A stretch of 64,000 nt of DNA from Sclerodactyla briareus (lineage: Eukaryota > Echinodermata > Holothuroidea > Dendrochirotida > Sclerodactylidae), in NCBI GenBank assembly GCA_026419785.1, contig JAODTK010004566.1, forward strand, positions 124,001 through 188,000. Direction: 5' to 3'. Each line of letters starts with the position of its first letter. The first letter of the stretch is position 1. The notes below the pieces were generated by a model, which saw nothing but the letters and a program-made list of their open reading frames with translations, made no database searches and was not told where the DNA came from. A program made the position numbers and the translations under genes. Shown here in pieces: positions 13,500-64,000 of this stretch.

Positions 13500-15436
13500 T
13501 CGTTTGAATGCAGGTCAAAGTGGAACTGGCTCCGTCACACCAAAAATGATAGTGTTCTTGTTTCCCATAAAAGAAAGCTGCTTCATATATCCCAAGATTC
13601 GGTCAAGCATCTGGACGTATAGTGTTTGGAACAAGATTTCAGACTTGGACTCTGTTGACCTAAGCGACTTAGATCTGAACCCAAACCAAAAGTGAATTAT
13701 ATGGAGAACCCTCATACCAGTGTATTGAAACTTCATCCATCCTATAGGTCCGAGTGTACATGGGAACAAGAAAATTGGACCAAAAATTTTCCCAGTGTCC
13801 TCCCAAAACTGACCCCCGGTCTGCACCAAAAGCAAAGGGTTCTTATTTCCCAGAAAGCGCCGAGTTTTGACCAGACAGACCAGGCATTATCAATTATTGT
13901 TAACGAGATTGCGACTTTGACCTCACTTGACCTCAGATGATATTTGACCCAACTCCAAAACCAATAAAGGATGCAGTACTCATTGTGGGGAACGCACATA
14001 CCATTATTAGCTTAATCCATCCAAGTGGGATCGGTAGTTATTGTTTTAACAAAGATGAAATTGGTCAAAACATCTATGTTTCAAAATTTCGCCATTTTTT
14101 CGTTCCCTCCGAAACTGACTCCGGTCTACTCAAATTAGCCAATATGGTTTCTTTGTCCTTCTTCCCCTAAGACGCTGTATATCTATATTTAAAACCTGAT
14201 CGGACTAGGCATTCTGGACTTAAATCGTGTGAACACTATTCTCAGACTTAAACTCCTCTTGAACTCAGATGAACTTTGACTCAAACCCCAAACAATAGGT
14301 ATCTTCACCATGGCAACTCCACCTACCACATATTAGGCTTACATCCTCCAAGTTTGGGTCGAGTTAGCTGTTAACAGCTAAAATGTGGCAATTCAATTTG
14401 CACATTTTTTCCAATTTTTTTTCTCACATCTGACCCGCTGCACCTAAACGACTGCGGTTTCCTGTACTCCTTATCAGAAGCTGCATACCAAATTTCACCC
14501 CGATCGGACAGGCATTCTGGACTTACTGTGTTAACAAGATTTCCAGACTTTGACCTCTCTCGACCTCAGATGACCTGTGACCGTACCCCTAAAAAACGAT
14601 AGGGCATCATATACTCAGTATGGGGACCCCAATCCCAATAGGAACTTGCGATCCATCCAGTGGGTCGAGTTTCGTGTTTAACGAGCTAAAGGTTTTGCCC
14701 AAATTAAAAACCTTTTTCATCACAATTTCCCAATTTTTTTCTCAATCTGATTCCCGGTCTACACCAAAAACAATAGGGTTCCGTCTCCCCATAAAAAGCT
14801 GCTACTACAGTGAACCACCCGATCGGACCACGGCATTCAGGATTAACAGATTTTTCAGACTTTGCCTCTCTTGACCATAGATAATTTTGAACTGACCCCC
14901 AAAACATAGGATCATGTACTCATTATGGGGAACCCATATACCGATATACTTGATCCATCCAAATGGGGATGAGTTTCGTGTTTACAAGCTAAATATTGCT
15001 AAATTATAAAATCAAAACAAATCAACAATTTTCCCAATTTCCCCCGAATCTGACCCCAGGTCGCACCAAAATATTGGGTTTTCTGCTTCCCATAAGTAAG
15101 CTGCATACTCATTTTCAACCTGATCGGATCAAGCATTCTGAACTAATCGTATTAACAAGAGTTTAAGATTTTACCTCTCTTGTCCTCGTTGACCACTGAC
15201 CCCAAAGCAATAGGGAATCATGAACCCACATGGGGGACCCCATATACAAAGTATAACTTGATCCATCCAAGTGGGGTTGAGTATCGTGTTAACAACTAGG
15301 CACTCTCACACGCACACACATATCGCACACACACGCACACGCGCTTACACACCAGCATACACACACACACACACACAATACATACATAATTACTGGCAGG
15401 ACTGCAAGATTATTATGATTCGTCAAGGAAATAAAA
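13500..15436 (+). repeat. Dimeric ~310-bp repeat array, diverged copy (a) with CA tract and right end
   Basis: Alternating half-units can be followed. 'A' halves (AATAGG-TCATGTACTCAT followed by TGGGGAAC) lie near 13,957, 14,288, 14,592, 14,900 and 15,205. 'B' halves (AATAGGGTT-CTGT followed by CCCATAAGAAAGCT) lie between them. A-to-A spacings are about 331, 304, 308 and 305 bp. Units are linked by GACCTC-GATGACCT and end in CGTGTTTACAAG. The array ends in a CA microsatellite (about 15,300-15,380) and then ACTGCAAGATT...CGTCAAGGAAATAAAA at 15,402-15,436, a degraded form of the right end seen at 31.4 and 38.9 kb. It is more diverged than copies (b) and (d), so probably older. There is no coding content. 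Confidence 0.8.
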
Positions 15437-18250
15437 TCCACCCTAATGTTAATACAGAAGCGATTATGTCCATAAACATTCTGATGATGCGGAAAGGGAA
15501 TAGAAATGGAACCGCTCATGTATACGGAAGTTTTTGGGGAAGGTAATCCATCTATTTGCGGGTACGTGCCTTGGCACAATTCCACCTGATTTTGATTTGA
15601 TTCGATTCCACGCGGTCAGGAAGCAAGAAAGGTTCATCTTAACCCTGGCCGTACCGGCAATAACTCGCCTTCTCTTCACGACTAGTGCTTACTAGATGAT
15701 ATCGATGCAGGGTGTAGCCATTTTTGCAAATATGCTACTGGAAGGGCGCAGGACGATAGTGGACTCGCGATCAGACACTCCCCGGGAGCGGAAATTTCAT
15801 TGGTTTCAACGTGATCCTCACAGTGACGACGGATTATTGCAAATATTCCGGACAGACCGGCAGAACCCATGCACAAATCCACTTACAGCGGAACATGAAG
15901 TGCATGACCAAGACCTCGCCCATGCAAAACTACAAGTACAGACAAGAAAAAATTCCAGTGGACGCGGAATTTGAAAAATTGCGTCATGATACCCCTTGCA
16001 ATTCTTCTGTCCCTGTACCAATGCTGTATCGATGCCTCATCACTGCGTATAGATTTCATGAAATATTCCCTAAAAAGTAAACTAACCTCCGCATACATCC
16101 ATGAGATGTTGCATTTCTATGGTCTGATCGGCATCAATAAACATTTCTCATGCTATTCACCTCTTTTTCGCCGATTTTAACATTCTACTATACCGCAGTC
16201 CGCCACTTAAGAAGTCTACCTCAAGTCGCCTCTAATGGCATGCAGGGAATTAACTCTTACGTTATGCGTCCTCCAACCACAGCAATGTGAATGCGCCCAG
16301 TATTGGATACGTCGAAGAAGACTCCATGATTGATATAGCCAGACAGGTTTCGGGTCGATTGGACAATTGCCTGAGAGTCATCGCACCAATGACAAGTTTC
16401 CGGTCCTATGGGCAGTCACTCACGTAGATTAGGCAAGAAGAAAAGAAACGTTTCGTTCCTTTTCCCTATGCTTCTTTCCTCATCGAGACCTCTTAAGGGG
16501 AAGGGGGCACACATATTCGTTTTCTACGGTCCGTGTTGAACAGAGCAAACGAAATACACCTGTACACGCGCACGCAACGATGTGTCCAATCAGATACCTA
16601 CAAGCACGAGCTCGCCCGGAGCATGTCATAATTCATGGATGAAGGAAATGTTGTCGGATGTTCAAAATCTTCCAATCGTTTCCGTCACCGCTGAATCGAA
16701 CGATAAAAACTTCAGTGGAGTTTCTTCTCACGTTTTTGTAGATGACATTCAGGACATCATTAATCTCAAATGATACATGCAGTAAACAGGATCCGCTATT
16801 ACCATATCCGCAAAGGGAATATCAGTCTAAGAAAAGTATGCCGAAGATAATGGAAGTTAATAGCGAAATGAGAGAAGACTCTTGCCCGTTCAGGAATATT
16901 TTGTAGTAAATCATTGATTTAATGAATATTTGTGGCTCCATTGTTCAGGCAACTCGGCGATACTCATCGAGCAACTATTAAAGTATATTGTATATAATCA
17001 CAAACATACCCCTGACAGGAACGAAATTCACTTTGAGCTATGAAAGTCATTTCATAATCGAGGCAAGATGGCGAATGATAGAAAATGACTCCCAGTAACC
17101 ACATTGTACCAACATTATTAATCGGAACAGAAAGCAATCTACACAAACGTATGGGAGAAAAAACACCCAACTAATGCAGGGCACAAAGAAGTGGTAATCT
17201 GCTCACCAAAATCATGAAATTGGGACTAACTTTTTACTGTGCATCAATTAGGATACAAGATTTCTTTTCATCGCGGATATTGAGCACTTTCTCTGGGCCG
17301 GTTTATATATAGGTTTATTCATTTTTCGTGCATGGCTCGAATTGCCTGCACATTTATATTATAAGATTATAAGAAAACATCACGTGATTCGGTGTATTAA
17401 ACATAGGTAACAATGTAGGCCTCATCTATATCAACATGTGTATTATATACAGTGTTGTACTAAACTTTGAACAGTGAAAAATCACACACTCCTAAAATAC
17501 TGAGTACTAAATATTAATAGTATTTTTTGGCCTAATTTTCTCCTGTTCTCTGTCGTTGACCTATATATAAGTGGCAGCGACAACTGCATCCCGGCGCTCC
17601 TTGAATACTTGAAGTGTTTCATGCAGAACAACGGGCGACCGAATTCGCTAAAATTAAGGCCGGTGTTCCAATTAATTATCCCATGGACTATTCGCTATTT
17701 CGCTGCGACATGTTAGCTCGGGATGAATCGTGGCGAATGCGACTAAATGCAATAAACCTGCTGAGAATAACACACGCAAGTCGGAATGGTTCTTGATAGC
17801 TGCGGACGGCAAAATTCCTTGGGGCAAATACGCTCATGTTTCTTCACCAGATCCGACAGTTTTGTTGGTTCACATTAATTGACCTTACTGACATCTGTCA
17901 TACCGTTGGAATGGGGCCCCCCCTTTTTGGAACATGTCTACCATATTGGGCTAATATTTCTATCACTGCCCCACACACAAGTACCCACGAAATCATTTCG
18001 AGGCCTGGATCTTTACTACATCTACCTCCAAACAGACTCAACATGTGAAAAGACACTTTCTTTCTGGGTCCACCAGCCAACAACTAGAGCGAATGTTTGA
18101 GAGACAAATCTTTACCCCTTGAACACGAGGTTTGATTGTCAACTACTGCTGCATAACCTGGACGCGTCTTACACAACGACAAGGGAAACCTGGTCTGCTG
18201 AGGATGGAGTCATGTAAACAAACTCCCACCTGTCACCGAGCTAGCCAATG
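15437..18250. other. Non-coding stretch, nothing recognised
   Basis: Overlapping open frames on both strands at about 15,690-16,100 have no recognisable domain and look like chance overlaps. No repeat shared with other parts of the window was noticed. Confidence 0.35.
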
Positions 18251-28265: not shown

Positions 28266-28271
28266 AAAAAA

Positions 28272-31200
28272 CAGAAAGCCAAGGAGGGCTTAGTGATCCT
28301 TGACTCTTTGACAAACTATAGCCAGAAACAAAGACAAATGGGCGATTGACAACAACTCACATGGCCACCCAACATCTGACAAATTTCCCCCAAACCACCA
28401 TAGAGTTCCTTATCTTGATAAGAGAGCTACACAATAATTTCAAAGATTTCAAACTTGGCCTATTACCATAGGCGAATAATGACAACAACCATTATGGACT
28501 TACGTGTGTTCACAAGGTTTTCAGACTTGACTCTGGTGACTCAGAGACCTTTGAACTGACCACAAAACGATAGAGTTATGTACTAGCATGGAGAAAACAC
28601 ATATTCAAGTATGGCTCTCCATCCAAGGTGGGGTTGAGTATCGGTTTACAAGCCAAGTTGGCCAAAATATAGATATCCCAAATTTTCTTTTTTTACTCCC
28701 CAAATTCATGGACCTTACAAAAAAATATGGTTCCTGTATCCCCATAAGAAAGCTATACATCGAATTTCAAACATGATTGGACCAAGCCTTCTGGAATTAT
28801 CGTGTCACAAGGTTTTCAGACTTGAATCTGGTGACTTCAGGTGACCTCTGACCTGACCCCAGAACAATAGGGTTCATGTTCTCATATGGGGAACATACAT
28901 ATAAGGTATGAGCTTCATCCATCAAGGTGGAGTTGAGTCATCAGTTAACAAGCCAAAATTGGCCAAAATATCGATTCTCACAATTTTGTTTTAAAGTTTT
29001 GTCCAAAAATTCACCCCGACCTATAGCAAAAACAATAGGGTTCCTGTAATTTCCAATAAGAAAGCTACACACAGATTGAACTTGATCAGACCAAACATCG
29101 GACTCATCTGTTTACAAGGTTTTCCCTTTGACCACTGGTGACCTCTGCTGACCCCAGAACATTAGGGTTAATGTTCTCATCATGGGGGAAACACATACCA
29201 AGTTGAGCTTCATCCATCAGGTGGAGTCGAGTATCATGTGTACAAGCCAAATTGTCCAAAATATTTACTTTCAGAAGATCTATTTTCGACGACAATTCAC
29301 CCCGACCTAAACCAAAAACGATGGATACATGTACTTCCACATAAGAAGCTATACATCAAATTTCAATTGATTGGACCAACCTATAGGACTAATACGGTGC
29401 AAGGTTTCAGAATTGACCTAGTGAACTCTGGCATGAACCCAAACAATGGGGATCATGACTCATCATGGGGAACACCATACCAAGTATGACGCGGCATCCA
29501 TGCCAGGTGGGGTTGGAGTTAGTGTGTTTACAGACAAAAATTGGCCACCAATCAATTTTTGAATATTTCCAAATTCTCCCAAAAATGACCCCAATCAAAA
29601 CCCAAAGCAAGGGTTCTTTTACTCCCCCATAAGAAAGCTACACACCAAATTTCGCTTGATCGGAACAATGTTTGGACTTATCGAGTTACAAGGATTGCGA
29701 CTTTTTGACTCTGTGACCCAGATGACCTCTGACCTGACCCAAAAACAATAGGGATCATGTCTTCATGGTGACACAAATACCAAGTATGAGCTCCAATCCA
29801 TCCAGTGGGGTACTTGGTGTTTGACAAGCCAAAATTGGCCAACCTATCAAGTGTCTTGGACTGTTCCTAATTTTACCAAAAAATGACCCCAATCAAAATC
29901 CAAAACAAAGTTCTGTATCCCCATAAAGAAACTACACACAAATTTTCAGCTTGATGGACCCGAACTGTTTTGGACTATCGAGTTTAAAGGATTTCAGATT
30001 TGAACTTGGTGACCTCGATGACTTGACCTGACACCAAACAATAGAGATCATGAATCATCATGGGGAACACACCATCCAAGTATGAGCGCATCCATCCAAG
30101 TGGGGTTGAGTTAGTGTGTTCAAGACAAATTGGCCAACATAGCAATTTTTCTGACTTTTCCTAATTTCCAGATACAACACCCAACCAATAGATCTTGTAA
30201 TCCCATAAAGAAAATACACCCACAACACATTCAGCTGATTGGACCCAAACTGTTTTGGGCTTTTGTGTTTTTACACAGGATTTAGATTTGACCTTATGGT
30301 GACCGGTGACCTGACCCAAAAACAATAGGGATCATGTAGTCACATGGGGAACACACATACCAAGTTGGCCCTCGCCGGTAACCCCCCTTAATCCATCAGG
30401 TGGGGTCGAGTTAGGTGTTTACATGCAAAGCGTACACCATACACTCACATACGAAACGACTACAGAGGTTCCCGGACTTTCGCAAGGAAAAAAACAATAG
30501 GTTCCTGTACTCCCCATTAAGGAAAGCTACACACCAAAGTTCCAACCCAGATCAGACAACATTCTGGACTATCGGTTACAACGGTTTCACACTTTGATCT
30601 CTGGTGACCTCTGACATGACCCCCACCAATAGGTTTCATGTACTCACATTCCAAAGTTTATGAGCTTAATCCATCAAGGTGGAGTGGAGTTATTGTGTTC
30701 ACAAGCCAAAATGGCAAATTAGTGACTTGCACAAATTTCATATGTTTGAACGAAAACATTCACCCCCGACCGATACCAAAAAACAATAGGGTTCTGTCCT
30801 CCCCATAAGAACAGCTACACACCAAATGAAACTGATCAAACCCAATCATTCTGGAAGTATAGGTTCACTAGGTTTCAGACTTGATCTTTGGTGACATCAG
30901 ATGACTCTGACTGGACCCCAAAACCAATAGAGTTCATGTACGCATCATGGGGAACACACATAACCAGTGATGAGCTTCATCTATTCAAGTGGGGTCGAGT
31001 GATCGTATTAACAAGCCAAAATTGCCAAATAATGGACTTTTCACAATTTTTTATATTTGACCAAAATTCACACGACTTACCAAAACTGATAGGGTTCCTG
31101 TAATTCAAGAATCAAGTACACACCCAAATTGGATACGATCGACACCAACATTTCTGGACTCATGTGTTCACAAGGTTTTCAGACTTTGGACCTTTGATGG

Positions 31201-31424
31201 GACCTCACGATGAGCTGCGACCTGACCCTAACCAATAGGGTTCATTACTCATCATGGACACACACTAACGCAGTATGAGCTTTATTCATCCAGCTGGGGT
31301 CAAGGTATCATGGTCACAAGCCAGCGTTACATTTTTTTTTTTACACACATACACACAACACACACCACACATTGTCACGACTGCGTTAGATTCCTTGGCC
31401 TTCGTCAAAGGAATCAAAACCTGC
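28272..31424 (+). mobile_element. Core-repeat element (b): left end, about 9 dimeric units, CA tract, hairpin right end
   Basis: The left end CAGAAAGCCAAGGAGGGC is followed by CTTAGTGATCCTTGACTCTT, the same as at 37.58 kb. It leads into a B half-unit near 28,400. Then A halves lie at about 28,565, 28,862, 29,153, 29,443, 29,744, 30,036, 30,321, 30,622, 30,922 and 31,231, with a B half between each pair. The average period is about 296 bp, shortened by many small deletions. After the last CGTGTTTACAAG-type junction comes a T run with a CA-rich stretch (31,331-31,370), then GACTGCGTTA and the terminal hairpin (31,389-31,415), ending in AATCAAAA. No open frame of note. Conserved ends around a variable number of core repeats suggest a non-autonomous mobile element, possibly Helitron-like, and not a simple satellite. 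The class is inferred. Confidence 0.75.
31389..31415. repeat. Terminal hairpin of core-repeat element (b)
   Basis: GATTCCTTGGCC pairs with GTCAAAGGAATC at 10 of 12 positions around a TTC loop. Equivalent sequences occur at 38,880-38,905 (near-perfect), 33,857-33,882 and 15,408-15,431 (degraded), always just after a CA-rich tract and always followed by A-rich sequence. Confidence 0.75.
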
Positions 31425-32440
31425 TTGTGATTAAGAACTCCTAAACCGAATATATTTGAAATCAAACGCACACATGACGAAGCTTTGACACAGGTATATA
31501 TTAACTTTTCTAGAAACGAAAAGGAGTCGCCTTGAGAAATTATATTAAATATACCAATATATATATAAAATAATCCCAAATGTCGTATACTAAAACACTT
31601 TGTAAGTAGTAGAAATGACACACTACAACAGTAAACCCTGTAATTTATATAAATACTGTGGTATATGGGAGAAAAATATATACCAAAGAAAGCCAGCTGG
31701 GAAATAGAACTTGGAGGAATAGGCAGACCACAGATTTACAATGTCTAGCAGTTTAGGAAGACATGTCCAGCATATCCTATCGACATTGTGAATTCAATGA
31801 AAGTTCTGTGACATATAAAAGCGAGTGTAAATCTGCACATAAAATTCCTAAATGAGGACTGAAATGTACATCAACTATGGACCTCTTCCATCTTCCTAAG
31901 TATTAAAAAATGGGCACGGGTGAAACAACTCTAGTGACTGTTTTACAGAGCTGTGTAAGTAATTGATTTTCCAAGGAGCTGCAATTCTATTTTCGGAGCA
32001 ATTACAGAAAAACCCCACAAAAGAGGTCCTTTCCAAAAAATTACAAAGGGCACACACACGTGCGCACTTGGGACCATGGTGCAATTGCCTTTTGAGAATG
32101 ATGCAACACCGGGAAGAGTCGTCGTGTTGATGGTGGGGTATTTCTGGAGTTGTACCCTATTTTCATCGATCTTCTCTGGGACTGAGGTCTGAAGTAGGGG
32201 GTGTCAACAATATGTATTCGGACCGGATTACCATGTTCAGAGGAAAAACCCTTTTTCTTGATTTCAAACACAGCTGTATTTATACAGAAAACAGCAACAA
32301 CACAAACTGCGGAATGAACTACAATGGACCATTACAACATGGAAAAGCTTAGTGTTGGCTAATTTTCTACGTGAATCACATCTCGGTGTGATAGGGTCCT
32401 GTCAACCACGTGCTGATTACATAGAGAGAGCTTTATCTTG
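31425..32440. other. Spacer between two core-repeat elements
   Basis: No gene recognised. It separates the right end of element (b) from the array of subfamily (c). A short repeat of GAGCCAAATAGCCAAAAAGA near 32,459 may be a diverged left end. Confidence 0.35.
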
Positions 32441-32449
32441 CAAAAAAAA

Positions 32450-33893
32450 ACTAAACAAGAGCCAAATAGCCAAAAAGAGCCACAACAGTGAGGGTTCAAT
32501 GATATTTACTCGGATTGGAGTTCTCATTTAGTATGAGATTAATCGGAACCGTGCGTCTTCACCTTATCGTGCTACGAGCTAATTTCGATGAAATTAGTAT
32601 TTCGGACCCCACCCTCATGAATTTACAATGAGATGAGCTGCTAACACGCTTAATATACTATGCCTCCCACACCAGTCAAGTTTCATCAAAATTGACCTTC
32701 TTACGATTGTGGAGATATCAACATTTGTTGAAGAAGAAACTTTGCTGTAAGCACTAGGAATATTGATGGGATCGGCACCAAAAACAATAGGGACCATCTA
32801 CAGACCAGGGTGATCTTTAGCACCCAAGTATGGAAAAATCGGACCTTGTGTCTTTCAATTATCAGGTTCACAAGAAAGCGGAACACAAGCACACACAAAT
32901 TACAGATTTAGGCCCCGCACCCATAATTATTAATGAGATGCGTCAAATTGTACCCTACATATAACTGATTTCATCCAATTAACAGAAGCAAATTATTTGA
33001 GCGAGCAAAGAATCGCACGGTCCGGTTGTGAGATATTGGACATTTTTGGAAATTTCACTAATCGGCCCACTCATGAGATTAGGAGGATCAGCATCAAAAA
33101 GCAATAGGCTAAACTCATCATGGGTGATTTACCACCCAAAATATGGGAGACCAATCAGACCCTGCGTCTGGCAGTTATAGTGTTTACAAGCCAAAATTAG
33201 GCGAAATCCTTATCTAGGCCCGCCCCTCTATGAAATATTAATGAGTACACAGGAGGTGTACCCAACACCTGCACCTTACCTCTGCCAAGTACACTGAATC
33301 AAGTTTGAGCAAAATCGCGCGTAAGGTTGTGGAGATATTGATATTTGAAGTCCTATCTCATTTTTTCTACGATCCGCCTACTCAGAATAGTAATGAGATC
33401 GGCCACAAAAACAATAGGGACATCTACAGACCATGGGGTGATACTACCAACCAAGTATGAAATTAATCAGACATTGCGTTTCACGTATGGGTTTACAAGA
33501 GAGCATGACCCAGGCCCACACCAAATTACGATTAGGGCTCTGCCCCCACAAATATTAATGAGCTGCCTCAAAGGTAACCTACCATATACAACCTGGCTCT
33601 CATGCCAATTACATTGAAGCAACTTTGCGCCCAATCGAAGGTACAGTGGTGGAGATACGTACACCCGTTTTGGAAATTTCTAAGGCCCGCCCACTCATGA
33701 ATATTGATGGATACTAGGCAACAAAACAATACAGATCATCTGACTCATCATGGGTGATCTACCCCCAAAGTATTGAAATAATCGGGACCTCAACCTCTTC
33801 CACTTGTCGTGTTTACAGAAAGTGTCACAGACACACCACACTGCCAGATTGCACTAGATTCCTTTGATCGGAAGAAAGGAAATAAAAAAAAGA
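32450..33893 (+). mobile_element. Core-repeat element (c), divergent subfamily
   Basis: A halves (AAAACAATAGGGACCATCTA-type, with GGGTGATCTA replacing GGGGAACACA) occur near 32,780, 33,097, 33,405 and 33,724, with spacings of about 317, 308 and 319 bp. The intervening halves differ from those of (b) and carry CCCACTCATGAATATTAATG and TTGTGGAGATATTGA-like blocks. The array ends with CGTGTTTACAG, a short CA-rich stretch and a degraded right end (GATTCCTTTGATC at 33,857, then GGAAATAAAA). Keeping the ~315-bp period while the sequence diverged suggests the dimer length itself is conserved or inherited. Confidence 0.65.
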
Positions 33894-33894
33894 A

Positions 33895-36800
33895 TACAAG
33901 AACTACACGTGCCCTGACTAATATGATAATATTGAATTGACTAGCGAACTGAACTTATTTAGACCTAAACTTCTGCCCTGATATGGAGAGTAAAACTCCC
34001 TCATATAGAGCTCAACTGTGGGTAATATCCCGTACTGCGGTGCAAAACGAATGATCCAAATATACTTTCAACCATTAATTATGTATACTCACTATTTCCT
34101 CAATGAATGGACAATCTGACTCCAGCCATCTGAGCATACGATACTTTATTGAAATGCAACCAGCTCTAAAAATGCTGTTCCCACTAGGCGGGAAATTGAG
34201 AGCCGAAAATTATGGGATAAGAAAAGGAGTATGCACATAATAAGTATGTAAGGTACAAATAACTAAATGAATGAGGATAATACTCTTTAGAATGCAACAG
34301 ACTGGGGAAGGAAAGGCAATAAACAACAATTGGAAATACAATGCATGAAATTATGGTATAACAGTACAGTGTGGAATAATCATAATAATAGAAACATTGA
34401 CTAATATTTAACAGTAACAAAGAATAAAATGATGGAATTGGCAAAGGGAAAAAAAGGCAAATGAACATCATAGAACAAAAGGATTTAAAATTGGACGGTA
34501 TTCATAGGATGAGATATAAAAAATGATCGCAATTTATAAATGGATGGAAAATTTTTAGAATAAGCAATCACTTCATAAATGAACACCGGAAGACTATATC
34601 TCTCCTCTTGAATAATAAACTATTTACACCTTATGGCCAGACTATAAAAATTTCCTACCATAGCAAAGATTTGAATCTAGATACATAGGCAAACTAGGAT
34701 ATAGCAAGAACAAGGAAATATATTAACAGGAATGATATTAAAGGAATAATACATTAATACCAGTACTAAGAAATTATCATTATAAATAATGAGCACACAA
34801 CAGTGGTTCTCCATGGGAAGGCATACTTTTCCTGATGACAGCAAGATTCCTTTGATTTGTAGATGATGTTGGATTCTAACCTTCCCATTATGGAAGGATA
34901 GAGAGAGAGGAAGGAATGGAAAAGTGCATTAGCACCATTGGGGCCGGCCACATCCTCATCTTTTGTTTTCATGTCCCTATCGTTCCCATCTTTCCTCTGT
35001 CTTTCCCTTTCCATCTTATATCTCGTAGCGATCCATTGGGCCTGTACCGTGTCCTGACCCTTTTCCCAGCTTTTTCCTTTCCAGTGGGGGCTCTCACGAT
35101 CAGTGAACTCACAGGATTCCGACACTTCATGGAACCTGGAGGAGCAGGGAATCAGGGTGAACCTGACTGCTCACGTGGACCGACAGACTTATTGCAGAAC
35201 AAAACCTCAAACACTCAATCCCTTCTAAGCCTTTCTGATTACAGTTTAATGAATGATAATGAAATTGTGCCACAGTCATGAGAGAACAATGGCGGTTCGA
35301 CGTTTGACCTACAGTGTGTAGAACATCTTCGAACCCCCCTGCCATAAATTACAAATCCTGCCAACACAAGACTTCACAGATTCACCCCCATACTTATGGG
35401 AATACCGAGACAAGGGATGAATTGGTTGCGTTTTCGAATAGTGGTGACAGATTAAAAATGAGCTGTAACGACATTGCTATGGGTGGAATCTCCTCTATGC
35501 CCCCGAGCTGTTAAGTAGTGAGCATGTGCACTCAATTACCACTTGGACAACCACGCTTTTACAGATGACGCAAAGACCAAGACCACAGCCCATCCCAATA
35601 CAGCCACCCGGAATACAAACTAGAATGTTAGCTTACTGCAACACGATACTACTGCTCTGCTATGATTCCACCTACACTTGGTTGTCAAACATAACAAACC
35701 AGACATGCTCACTGTCTCTTAATGCAGACTGAAAGGCAAGGACTGTGTTAATGTCACACACTTTCACACCTGCTGTCTAGGCACACTGGCTCATTGTCTG
35801 GACTTCGAAAGCAGGTAGCAGGCTGAAGTGTCAAGGTCACAAGCCCCCACAGATAGGTCTTCCACAGCGTGTGCCCCACACTTTCTCACCTGATTCCATC
35901 AGCCAATTTGATAACCCACATGTTTAGGCCATGCCACAGTATTCAGAAATCTGAATGTCATCCTGGATAACACTACACACAACCCAACTGTTCAATCTTG
36001 GTGTCAGGAAGAGCCAAAGTGACTAAATCTGAGGGTTTTGTTTTATTGGGCATAGCCGCAACGGACCCTACCCTTTGTGTCTCTGATTCATGATTCAGTT
36101 AAATTTATTTTTCATTATCCTGCATACCTGAAATAATTGTTTTTAAACAGCCTTGCCTCAGCTAGTTTTCATAGAGGGCCATTCAGGAGAATTGAATGCT
36201 ATGATGAAAATAAAACAAATAGCTGATCCTCCTTGAAATTAAGGAAGGCCATGCCGGCAAGTGAACCCTCTGGAAAGACTCACGTAATATGGATATAAAA
36301 ATAAAAATGAAAAATAACCCCCAAACAGCATGGAATCGTAGTACCATCAATGACGATTGAAATTATTTTATTTTATAGGATAGAGATGCTCAGGTTACAA
36401 TGAAATTGCGGAAATCTCAAAATCTCCACACAGCAGGGTATTCCTCACTTAGTCACTGGTGGTAAATAACGCCATAGGAATAATCCTTCATTACTGCCTG
36501 AATATCAATGAAGGTTGTCCCACTATGTAATATAAATACCAAGACTATATCAGTAAGTTCCCGGAGCGAGTGCAAAGTAGGGCTCAGGTATGTTATTCAA
36601 GTCCACCATTTTTCTGATGGCTGTTCCCCAATCGTTGCAGCTTCCAGGATGACAGGACATTACCCGTTATTGACATCTTCAAACTGACTGCTTGTAATCA
36701 CTTATTATAATGTAGTACCTAGAAAACAATGATCTGCCTTCAGGAGGTTGTTGAAGCCTCTTGACCTTGCAGAAATCTCAAAATCTCCCATCCAGCAGAG

Positions 36801-37575
36801 GTACTCATCAACTTAGTCAACTGGTGTAAAAACAGTCCTTCACTGCTTGCTCCCTTCTTCCAGAAGAGAAAAAAATATTAGAGGTTGCTCATGCAGACAG
36901 GGTGGTTTCAGGAATGGCACAGGGGATCATTCTTCTGTTGAGGGGAAAAAGAGGAGAGTTCCATTAGAAGAGAGGACCTGTAACTGGATCACTGCAATCC
37001 ACATTTGTCTCCCATCCAACCGGTATGGCCCTCAGTGTTCGGTCCTGGTTTGCAACTCATGGTTTTCTTCTAGTGCCCACCAGGCAACAATTACAAGCCA
37101 CTTCCATGTTTTGCTTTTCAGATGACTTGGTATTAGCATTTAACGAAAACAGATTACTAATCAGTGACCATAAGTACATGTGAAATCGACTAACTTTTGC
37201 CTAAAGTATGAAAATCGGACCCAATATTCAACTTCCATTGATCCATTTTCTTTCTCACTTTAAATATCCTCAGGACCATAGGTGGACCACAACTGATACA
37301 TTTCATAGGAATCCAACAAACTTGCATGAATGGAAATTTAGTGACTTGAGTCAATTATGAAATTTTGGGGGCTAAAGGGTAGACCATACCCATCAAGCTT
37401 CAAATCAAACGAACAAATCAACTCGAAAATAGACACACTGAATGGCCCTCCGTGACCTCCCTCTATGTTCAAACTGATGGAGAGTAATCTAGCTTCATGA
37501 AAATCTGGCACCTTTTAAATGACGCTAAATATGCAAATTAGACACGTTTAATGACCTCCAGTGACAAAGAATCAT
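33895..37575. other. Stretch with no firm gene
   Basis: Open frames at 34,766-35,125 (minus, charged: ERERQRKDGNDRDMKTKDED) and 34,916-35,281 (plus) overlap, so at most one is real; neither has a recognisable domain. The frame at 36,847-37,125 is K/R-rich but also unassigned. 37,180-37,570 belongs to the dispersed family also present at 38.9 and 49.6 kb, into which element (d) is inserted. Confidence 0.3.
36410..36850 (+). repeat. Local direct duplication, spacing about 360 bp
   Basis: GAAATCTCAAAATCTCC followed by CAGCAG-GGTA-TC and ACTTAGTCA-CTGGTG occurs at about 36,410-36,500 and again at 36,771-36,850. Each is followed by a CCTTCA-TGC segment. The copies differ by scattered indels. Confidence 0.65.
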
Positions 37576-37581
37576 GATAAA

Positions 37582-38912
37582 CCAGAAAGCCAAAGGCTTA
37601 GTGTTCCTTGACTCTTTCGGACAACCTAAAGCTAGACATAAGAAATGGGAGATTGCACCTGCCAGCTCATTATGGGCAACATAACCACTGACAATTCCCG
37701 TTTATTCCGCACCAACAATAGGGGGGTTCCTATCTCTTGTAAGAAAAGCTACACCACTGAATTCGAGATTTTTCAGACTTTGAGCTATGGCGACCTCAGA
37801 TGACCTCTGACCTGCCGTAAAAAATGGGTTCATTACTCATCGTGGGGAACCACATACGAGTATACCTCATCCATCCAGCGGGTCGAGTATCTGTGTTTAC
37901 AAGCAAAATTGGCAGAAATATCGATTTCGCACAAATTTTTTGATTTTCGACTTCCCACACACATGCACCCCGACCCATAACAAAAACATAGGGTTCCTGT
38001 GCTCCCAAAGAGAGCTACACCCAAATTTTTCAACCTGGTCAGAACAACCATTCTGGATTTATTGTGTTTACAAGGTTCGCAGTCTTTGACCCTCTGGTGA
38101 CCCTCTCAGATGACACTCTGACCTCACCTCCAAACACAATAGGGTTCAATGTACTATCATGGGGAACACACATACCAAGTAAGAGCTTCTCCATCTAGGT
38201 GGGGTCGAGGTTTCGTGTTTACAAGCCAAAATTGGCGCAGAATATCAATTTTCCCACAATTTTACTATTTTTGACCAAAATTCACCCGACCTATACCAAA
38301 ACATAGGGTCCTGATCTCCCCTTAGAAAGCTACCAAAAACACCAAATTTCAACCCTGATCAGACCAACCTTCTGGACTTATCGTGTTTTCCAGGTTTTCA
38401 GACTTTGACCCTCAGATGTCTCTGACCTGACCCCAAAACAATAGGGTTCATGTACTCATGATGGAGAACACCATTACCAGTCTAGCTTTCATCCATCCAA
38501 GCGGGTCCGAGTTATATGTTTACAAGCAAACTGGCCAAATATTACTTTACACAAATTTTATCTTCCTATTTTGACCAAACTAAACTCAAACCCGACCTAA
38601 ATAATCCAAAAAACCTAGGTCCTGTCCTCCCCATAAAAAAGCTACACCCAAATTTCACCTGATGAGACCAACCATTCTGGACTTTCGGTTTACAAAGTTT
38701 TCAGACTTTTAGCTCTGGTGACCTCAGATACTCTCTGACCTGACCCCAAAACAATAAGGTTCATGTAGCATCATGGGGCACACACCTCCACGTATGAGCC
38801 TTACCACTCAGACCTGATCAGTTATCGTGTTTACCGGAGCTGGGCTTCCCACACCCACCCACACCGACCTGACTGCATAGATTCCTCTGACTTCGTCAAG
38901 GAATCAAAAATT
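37582..38912 (+). mobile_element. Core-repeat element (d): same ends as (b), fewer units
   Basis: The left end is CCAGAAAGCCAAAGGCTTAG, which contains the small palindrome AAGCCAAAGGCTT, and then TTCCTTGACTCTTTC. It enters a B half near 37,715, followed by A halves near 37,817, 38,137, 38,441 and 38,750, with B halves near 37,984, 38,302 and 38,615. After the last GTTTACCGGAG junction a CCCACACCCACCCACA stretch replaces the CA microsatellite. Then come GACTGCATA and the hairpin GATTCCTCTGAC/GTCAAGGAATC (38,880-38,905), ending in AAAA. At about 1.33 kb against 3.15 kb for (b), it differs mainly in unit number. It interrupts another dispersed repeat: similar CAAATTAGA-ACA-TGAATGACCTCCA sequence occurs on both sides, so the insertion is nested. 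Confidence 0.75.
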
Positions 38913-41819: not shown

Positions 41820-42930
41820 TAAGAGATTTCATTCTCGACGAGAGGAACGTAAGGAGGAGCGAGAAGCGCAAAGGGCTGAACGAGCACTAGAAAGAGAGGC
41901 CAAACAAAGGCAGTTCGGTTCTATCAGGAGTTGAGGAAGCATGAACTCGAGCTAAAGAAGCATGAGTTGCAGGTTGAGGCAGCGAGAGCTGCAGTCAGCA
42001 GCTGTCCCCCCAGTCATAGGTCGGCATGGCATTAGAGGGCCTAAACTCCCCCACCGTTCGAATGAGAGCTGGCGACGACATTGGACGCATACATTAACAG
42101 ATTTGAGCGCTATGCCGAGTCTCTGAAATGGGACAGAAACACGAATGGGCCATCAATTTAGAGCTCTGTTGCACAAGGGAAGGCTCTTTTCGAGTATTCC
42201 TCCCTTTCTTCTAGCGAAGCGTCGTGCTACGGACCGTAAAGCCTAGAGTGTGAAAGCATATGCATTGATGCAGAGGGATTCAGGCGGAAGTTCAGGTACA
42301 CTTTGCCACAACAGGACGAGTCCGCCGTTAGATTTTCGAACCGTTTTGAGCACTTACCTCACCCGTTGGTTCAGAGTTTAGCAAATGCCAAGTCCGTCTC
42401 TGTTTTTAAAGGATGTGCTAATCCGGAGCAGTTTGTAACTGTTGCATACAACACTTTGGCCACAACAGTCCACTTGCCACCACAGGACGAGCCGCCGTTA
42501 GATTTTCATTTCGAACCGTTTTGAGCAATTACCTCAACCGTTGGTTAGAGTTAGCAAATGCCAAGTCCGTCTCTGTTTTAAAAGGATTTGCTAATCCGCG
42601 AGCAGCTTGTAAACTGTTGCAATACGGACCAAAAGGTTGTCCTGAAAGAATGGGAACCGGCCCACGATTCAGTAAATGGTCAAATTGTCTGATCAGTATA
42701 TATACCGCACATGGTGGGTAGAAAATTCAGAACAAGCAACGGGATAGCAGCCAAAACCACGCAGGTTTGGGGCAATAGTCAAAAACCCTACCATGAGTAT
42801 CACAAACCAAAAGCTGAGCAGAACAGGCAACTTCCGTTCAGCGGCACTGGTCAAGGGTCGAGTAGAAAGTTCGGCCATTGCTTCCTATGTAATTTCCCAG
42901 TCACCATGGGCTAGAGTTGGTCCAAACGGC
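41820..42930 (+). pseudogene. gag of the LTR element, with coiled coil and SCAN-like capsid region
   Basis: The open stretch from 41,820 gives a highly charged helix (REERKEEREAQRAERALERE), likely a coiled coil, continuing through HELELKKHE. Near 42,075-42,200 come DAYINRFERYAESLKWDRNT and SSLSSSEASCYGP, typical of gag of this group. A capsid C-terminal part follows, with FRRKFRYTLPQQDESAVRFS and later LANAKSVSVLKG. Residues near 42,590-42,700 have the SCAN-like pattern of an R-x-x-C-x-x-L segment before a Q-Y/AH-type ending. CFLC at 42,879-42,890 followed by a histidine pair is probably the remains of a zinc knuckle that would bind RNA. About ten frameshifts interrupt it, and an internal segment is duplicated. 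In intact elements gag forms the particle that packages element RNA. Confidence 0.75.
42304..42640 (+). repeat. Tandem duplication of about 173 bp inside gag
   Basis: CCAC-ACAGGACGAG-CCGCC and TTAGATTTTC, then GCAAATGCCAAGTCCGTCTC, occur at about 42,304-42,475 and again at about 42,477-42,640. The two copies differ by several indels (for example an extra ATTTC block in the second). The duplication repeats part of the capsid coding region and shifts the frame. Confidence 0.8.
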
Positions 42931-60784: not shown

Positions 60785-61716
60785 CACAAACTCAGATGAC
60801 CCCCTGACCCCAAAACAATAGGGTTCATGTATCATCAGGGGAAACACACAAAACCAGTATGAGCGCAATCCATCCAGGTGGTGGTCGAGTATCGTGTTTA
60901 CAAGCCAAAATGCCCAAAATATGGGCTTTTCACAAATTTTCTTATGTTTTTTACCAAAATTTACCCAGACCTATACCAAAAACATAGGGTTTCTGTACTC
61001 CTCTTAAGAAAGCTACACAACCTCAATTTCAACATGATCAGACCAACCGTCTGGACTTATCCTCATGTTTACAGGTTTTCAGACGTTGACCTCTGGGGAC
61101 CTCTGACACTAACCCCAAAAAAAAATGATTAGGAATTCATGTACACATCATAGGGGACACACAAATATCTCAAGTTTGAGCTTCATCAATTCAGGTGGGT
61201 TGGAGTTATGGTGTTTACAAGCCGAAATTGTCTAAAAATATCCAATTTCAAAGTTTCTATTTTCGACCAAAATTTCACCCCGACCTGAACCACAAAAACC
61301 AATAGGTTCCTGTACTCCCCATAAGAAAGCTAACACCTAATTTCAACTGGTTCAGACCAACCCCATTCTGGACTTATCGTGTTTAAAGGTTTCAGACTTC
61401 GACCTCTGGTGACCCAGATGACCTTCTGACAGGACCCCAAAACAATAGGGTTCATGTACTCATAATGGGGAACACACTACCAAAAGGATGAGCGTCATCC
61501 ATTAGGGTGGGGTCGAGTATCGTGTGTACAAGCCAAAATTCGAAAATTTTCGAATTTTCACAAATTTTCTATTTCCTGCCAAAATTCACCCCCCCCCCAA
61601 CGACCTGAACCAAAAACAATAGGGTTCCTGTACTCCACATAGAAAGCTATAGTCCTAATTTCAATTGATTGGGACCAACCATTCGGGGACTTATATGTGT
61701 TTAAAAGGTTTTCACG
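60785..61716 (+). repeat. Dimeric ~310-bp repeat array (g), three units
   Basis: A halves start near 60,815, 61,123 and 61,443 (spacings 308 and 320 bp), with B halves near 60,981, 61,300 and 61,615. Thus A to B is about 170 bp and B to A about 145 bp. This copy shows the consensus order well: CCCCAAAACAATAGGGTTCA, CATCATGGGGAACACACA, GAGC-CATCCA, GTCGAGTATCGTGTTTACAA, CAATAGGGTTCCTGTACTCC, AAGAAAGCTACAC, then TTCTGGACTTATCGTGTTT and GGTTTTCAGACTTTGACC. It stops inside a unit at GGTTTTCAC, where LINE sequence begins. Confidence 0.85.
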
Positions 61717-63744: not shown

Positions 63745-64000
63745 CATCTTTGACCTCTGGTGACCTCTGACCTGACTCCAAAACAATAGGGTTCATGTAC
63801 TCATCATGGGGAACACACATACCAGTTATGAGCCGCATCACCAGGGGGGTTGATATCGTGTTTGAAGCCAAAAGCGGCCCCTAAAATATGATTTTTCACA
63901 AATTCCTATTTCCGACCCCCAAAAAGCCACCCGACCTGAACCAAAAACAATAGGGTTCCTGTACTCCCCCTGAAAAAGCTGTCCACATTTCAACTTGATT
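63745..64000 (+). repeat. Dimeric repeat array (h), runs off the window
   Basis: Resumes with TTTGACCTCTGGTGACCTCT and a clean A half (CAAAACAATAGGGTTCATGT, CATCATGGGGAACACACA), then a B half (AACAATAGGGTTCCTGTACT) near 63,944. It continues beyond the last base of the window. Confidence 0.85.

Follow-up and report, generated by a model that had tools for sequence, protein, structure and literature searches.

How does a short satellite-like array come to lie between the same two ends in copies that differ mainly in the number of repeats? The question is raised by a 64-kb piece (64,000 nucleotides; hereafter the window) of the sea cucumber Sclerodactyla briareus, contig JAODTK010004566.1, in which two sequences, copies b and d, carry tandem units of about 310 bp between shared ends. 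The initial annotation had proposed a mobile element in which conserved ends enclose a varying number of core repeats. We examined its ends, borders, core units and possible partner genes in the whole assembly (319.5 Mb, 3,171 contigs), and we put at about 90% the probability that copies b and d belong to a single HINE family, that is, of non-autonomous, gene-less rolling-circle transposons of Helentron type. We take the family to be new, and its kind is already known from oysters and flies; with Cg_HINE and Pearl it was compared by description only. Statements about published elements refer throughout to the accessible portions of PMC4067079 and PMC7492417.

Family copies were gathered with the sequence of copy d as query, and the sample is therefore biased towards d-like copies. 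All 40 scored candidates for the left end of d matched it, d included (from 1,911 first-look candidates), as did all 40 scored for the right end, again with d included (from 1,783). The first-look totals are unscored and suggest, short of proof, that the genome holds well over a thousand copies. Borders were read in 30 oriented loci per end. The left border falls between AAC and CAGAAAGCC and mostly reads AACCAGAAAGCCAAAAGGCTTAGTGATTCCTTGACTCTTTCTGAC; the right border has the form GGAAT-C/A-AAAA, mostly GACTGCATAGATTCCTCTGACTTCGTCAAGGAATC or -AATA, then a few A and differing sequence. Recurrence of the ends goes beyond chance, because both recur at sharp borders in differing flanks. Copies b and d, read directly as sequence, have left ends that match the family consensus at 83% and 87%; the right CA-tract and hairpin match at 81% (positions 25-87) in b and 90% in d. 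Both shared ends and their combination into a mobile unit had been proposed from the window sequence; the sampled copies confirm the first and support the second.

The right hairpin has an outer arm whose reverse complement is the left motif TGATTCCTTGAC. This 12-bp match in inverted orientation defines a subterminal inverted repeat (subTIR). Read 5' to 3' on the minus strand of the window, the element begins with oligo-T, a palindromic subTIR (TGATTCCTTGAC-GAA-GTCAGAGGAATC), a GT microsatellite and an A half-unit; n dimeric units of 310 bp, a truncated B half-unit and a further end tract follow; the 3' terminus consists of the inverted subTIR GTCAAGGAATCA, a small hairpin (AAGCC-TTTT-GGCTT) and the end TCTGGTT. 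In published HINEs the 5' end has oligo-T and a subTIR (palindromic in mites), and the 3' end has the subTIR in inverted form and, after it, a small palindrome (PMC4067079, PMC7492417). Since the minus-strand order matches, the large hairpin is the 5' end and the left end of the forward strand is the 3' end, which reverses the earlier placement of that hairpin at the 3' end.

The 5' subTIR sits after about 4 T and folds as a hairpin. In the mite families subTIRs are palindromic, 12-15 bp long and 2-4 nt from the 5' terminus (PMC4067079). With z values of -2.85 (consensus) and -3.88 (copy d), the fold is strong and beats 199 of 200 shuffles. At the other end the fold is weak (consensus z -1.81); the AAGCC/GGCTT stem lies 7 nt from the end and is present in the consensus. 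HINEs are described with a palindrome of 5-10 bp about 8-35 nt from the 3' terminus (PMC4067079, PMC7492417).

Insertion sites were read from 43 paired copies, after a false right end inside copy b (win_2226) had been replaced by the real end of b. Among the 38 pairs with both borders recognised, no target-site duplication of 4-8 bp was detected above shuffled pairing. In 41 left borders the bases before CAGAAAGCC were A at -3 (88%), A at -2 (85%) and C at -1 (80%). Bases beside the left end are A/T-rich, oligo-A/T occurs at the borders, and the right hairpin is followed by an A-run, 5 bases long in 17 of 40 cases. HINEs are reported to insert into T-rich sequence or TT with no target-site duplication (PMC4067079, PMC7492417). 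Copy L032 sits nested within a core unit that belongs to a different copy: the host unit resumes 2-4 bp on (model 96/98 to 101) and continues to its own right end. This nested copy is the single candidate for a clean empty site. L060 has almost no left flank, and in L072 the left end is cut within the locus.

The features found in the family fit HINEs: a palindromic 5' subTIR, a 3' palindrome, oligo-A/T borders and no detected target-site duplication. A canonical Helitron with a satellite core would likewise be rolling-circle-like, with a hairpin near its 3' end and no detected target duplication. Such an element should begin with 5' TC, end with 3' CTRR and insert between A and T. Here the termini are TTTTTGATTCC...TCTGGTT instead of TC...CTRR, subTIRs occur at both ends and the borders are oligo-A/T, which makes a canonical Helitron very improbable. 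The proposed class of non-autonomous Helitron-like elements is supported in its general form, with most of the HINE signature present, and is narrowed to Helentron/HINE.

The core was examined with a unit consensus of 310 bp. It is a dimer, as first described: positions 35-143 and 202-310, 109 bp each, agree at 70%, with half-unit offsets of 167 and 143 bp. A full unit was counted where the match covered more than 200 model positions. By this measure b has 9 full units and two partial ones and d has 3 and partial ones, close to the earlier estimate of about 9 versus 4. Across 42 paired copies of 0.4-3.3 kb, length followed 318n + 445 bp (r 0.987); L042, whose start lies outside its locus, was left out of this set and of the age test below. 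Full units numbered none in 4 copies, one in 14, two in 8, three in 7, four in 4, five in 1, seven in 2, eight in 1 and nine in 1. Three of the four zero-unit copies are 407-454 bp long and still have both ends; the fourth, L068 (644 bp), scores zero under the length threshold. The last unit match ends at model 144-150 in 39 of 42 copies (the others at 47, 83 and 154), and in this sample the array phase is fixed at the 5' side. At the opposite side, where the initial annotation gave a B half-unit as first core, 22 of the 42 copies have a first match that begins at model 195-230; in the other 20 copies it starts elsewhere, mostly as weaker matches within the left end.

Within the unit consensus, positions 14-51 contain five TGACCT/TGACCC motifs in 38 bp. 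We take this row to be nuclear-receptor half-site-like. A regulatory role is not claimed: conservation was 0.867 versus 0.841 for the rest of the unit, barely better.

Units were compared within and between 38 arrays of at least two full units each. The nearest neighbour lay in the same array for 46 of 148 units, versus 3.2 expected. The nearest unit from another array had the same rank 24 times counted from the left and 29 times from the right (expected 30.5 for each); for first and last units the figures were 12/38 and 13/38 (expected 12.8). Units are alike locally and show no positional matching between copies, and unit number therefore changes locally and not through inheritance of ordered blocks. 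Array change is local and by whole units. Mean within-array distance ranged from 0.02 to 0.32 and exceeded the mean between-array distance in 10 of 38 arrays; local similarity fades in arrays that are old or noisy. Part of the divergence may come from sequencing error, since small indels seem frequent in the assembly. End divergence and within-array distance were loosely related in 23 copies (Spearman rho 0.37, p 0.08; Pearson 0.42, p 0.046), with L006, L007 and L044 as outliers whose arrays look younger than their ends. This age test is weak and does not separate expansion at the birth of a copy from later homogenisation.

Greater similarity within arrays is also expected of satellites, and some flanks are themselves repeats. 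Both would fit satellite DNA that recombination or extrachromosomal circles had spread, the shared ends being ordinary edge sequence. We consider this highly unlikely: the same two ends and array phase recur in nearly all sampled copies, and the three shortest copies keep both ends with no full unit between them. The longest cluster among 114 core matches was about 3.5 kb (C1919:53546-57008), in an assembly that may miss long satellite blocks; neither outcome that would have refuted the initial annotation, a lack of common ends among the copies or arrays confined to long satellite blocks, appeared in the sample. A cut-and-paste miniature inverted-repeat transposable element with terminal inverted repeats would account for the 12-bp inverted repeat common to both ends, and is similarly improbable given that the repeat is subterminal, one copy lies inside a palindrome and no target duplication was detected.

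Several observations weigh against assignment to the HINEs. The 3' hairpin of copy d alone gave a z of -0.56, and 46 of 200 shuffles folded equally well. About 23 bases separate the 3' subTIR from the terminus, a shorter distance than the 38-60 of mite HINEs (PMC4067079). In L010 and L035 the last unit match stops at model 147-148, yet the end follows only after 436 and 187 further bases. When six joined flanks were searched for (40 of 1,378 candidates scored), no junction-spanning empty site was found; 28 of the 41 rows were the repeated right flank of L040, and the other five flanks were hardly tested. The two flanks of L040 lie in two different repeats. In L027 (767-987) the right end abuts core at an A-run and the left flank is not core. 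On the evidence of L040 and L027, not every copy is a simple insertion. A Rep-domain search of the assembly found no autonomous element with the two ends of the family.

The arrangement in L027 could represent two copies in tandem, the inner one truncated; tandem arrangements of this kind are mentioned for Helitrons (PMC7492417, introduction). L040 had been considered as an empty site at an A-run and was dropped, its flanks belonging to different repeats. Its right flank matches 28 other places from 5 or fewer bases off the junction (L082-L088 were looked at with the L040 flanks).

The Rep-domain search returned three matches to Pfam Helitron_like_N in two contigs, from four candidates. The domain is split over frames at one contig and has one stop at the other; in this assembly, which looks indel-rich, this may reflect decay or sequencing error. 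On C2413 two Rep-domain pieces lie in different frames (E 3e-9 and 3e-11), the first of which matches nowhere else among four candidates. Some 1.1 kb beyond the last of the Rep pieces a family copy starts (L072:6755); it has the same Helentron orientation and runs to the locus end within its other end module. The interval L072:4597-6755 contains the Helitron_like_N pieces in different frames and a sub-threshold DUF6570 match. No helicase match was found among seven C2413 pieces given to Pfam, which did not include every frame. The C2413 pieces were rejected as the partner, given the broken reading frame of the Rep domain, a non-significant endonuclease match (E 0.21) and no shared ends shown. 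Mite and Culex Helentrons and DINE-1 have autonomous partners with matching ends (PMC4067079), whereas here there are only Rep pieces, whose relation to the family is unproven.

As HINEs, the copies would move with a Helentron Rep/helicase protein supplied in trans, which would nick the element ends. One strand would be peeled off and inserted at an A- or T-run. Whole units could be gained or lost by slippage or unequal exchange around replication, and changes by whole units would leave the ends and the phase untouched.

Other family members and a relative lie in the same window (Table 1). The initial annotation had assigned degraded versions of the right end to copies a and c. For copy a this is upheld (15400-15436, 82%, E 0.001); the family end search detected no left end there. 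For copy c, membership of a related subfamily with a core of its own is a better reading than decay. The core and left part of c recur genome-wide (21 matches among 21 candidates, c included), and the left end in five further loci resembles AACAAGAGCCAAAAGGCTACATGATTCCTTGC, closely in L078, L079 and L081 and with indels in L077 and L080. The left end of these relatives has a AGCCAAAAGGCT hairpin and GATTCCTTG in common with the b/d family, and that of copy c itself is altered relative to them. A genome search with the right hairpin of c matched c only. A 173-bp tandem repeat (1.8 copies, 89% matches) lies nearby at 42303-42621.

Table 1. Members of the element family and a related copy in the window. 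Strand refers to the 5'-3' sense of the Helentron; positions are those of the window.
Feature	Position	Strand	Basis
Copy b, HINE-like, both ends, 9 full core units + partial	28269..31420	-	ends, units, borders
Copy b, 3' module (left end on the forward strand)	28269..28389	-	83% to family consensus
Copy b, core array of 310-bp dimeric units	28392..31324	-	unit model matches
Copy b, 5' palindromic subTIR hairpin + oligo-T (A-run on + strand)	31389..31420	-	sequence; right-end match 81%
Copy d, HINE-like, both ends, 3 full core units + partial	37580..38910	-	ends, units
Copy d, 3' palindrome, AAGCC/GGCTT stem, 7 bases from terminus	37587..37599	-	sequence; fold
Copy d, 3' subTIR, the 5' subTIR in inverted form, lacking one base in this copy	37602..37612	-	sequence; family consensus
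Copy d, core array, 3 full units + A half-unit	37770..38835	-	unit model
Copy d, 5' palindromic subTIR hairpin + oligo-T	38880..38910	-	fold z -3.88; right end 90% to consensus
Copy a, degraded, same family: core array + degraded 5' end, no 3' module detected	13536..15440	-	unit model/ends
Copy c, better read as related subfamily; core differs, altered left end, degraded or divergent right hairpin	32454..33891	-	recurrence searches
Core fragment, b/d family, 3 units, no ends detected	60790..61702	-	unit model
Core fragment, b/d family, cut by window end	63750..64000	-	unit model

Among described elements, Cg_HINE of Crassostrea gigas (PMC7492417) is similar in several respects. It has two flank modules with subTIRs, a palindrome in the right module and microsatellites, and satellite-like central repeats in one fixed orientation, mostly with few units per copy. 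Likewise, it shows no target-site duplication, occupies T-rich sites and is described with no autonomous partner tied to it. Some related flanks in the oyster enclose unrelated cores, and copy c can be likened to oyster group 2. The Cg_HINE monomer consensus sequences considered here measure 138-181 bp, versus a 310-bp dimer with diverged halves of 143 and 167 bp here. HINEs and Helentrons of mites and Culex and DINE-1 of Drosophila (PMC4067079) share subTIRs (palindromic in mites and Culex), a 3' hairpin, oligo-T ends, no target modification and, in some copies, a tandem core. Pearl of Crassostrea virginica and Anadara, DTC84 and MgE (PMC7492417) also consist of short arrays of ~160-bp repeats between fixed ends; Pearl is described with up to six repeats, versus 0-9 full units here.

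In this one genome, then, a rolling-circle element carries, between fixed ends, a satellite array of 0-9 full units that changes by whole units. With local similarity, no positional inheritance and a fixed phase, the timing of array expansion becomes a testable question. One rather doubtful answer is that transposition resets the array, with new copies starting from one or a few units, whose number would then grow again in whole 310-bp steps as the element is copied by rolling circle. If this were true, the element would be a generator of fresh satellite arrays, and its unit number would record copying events.

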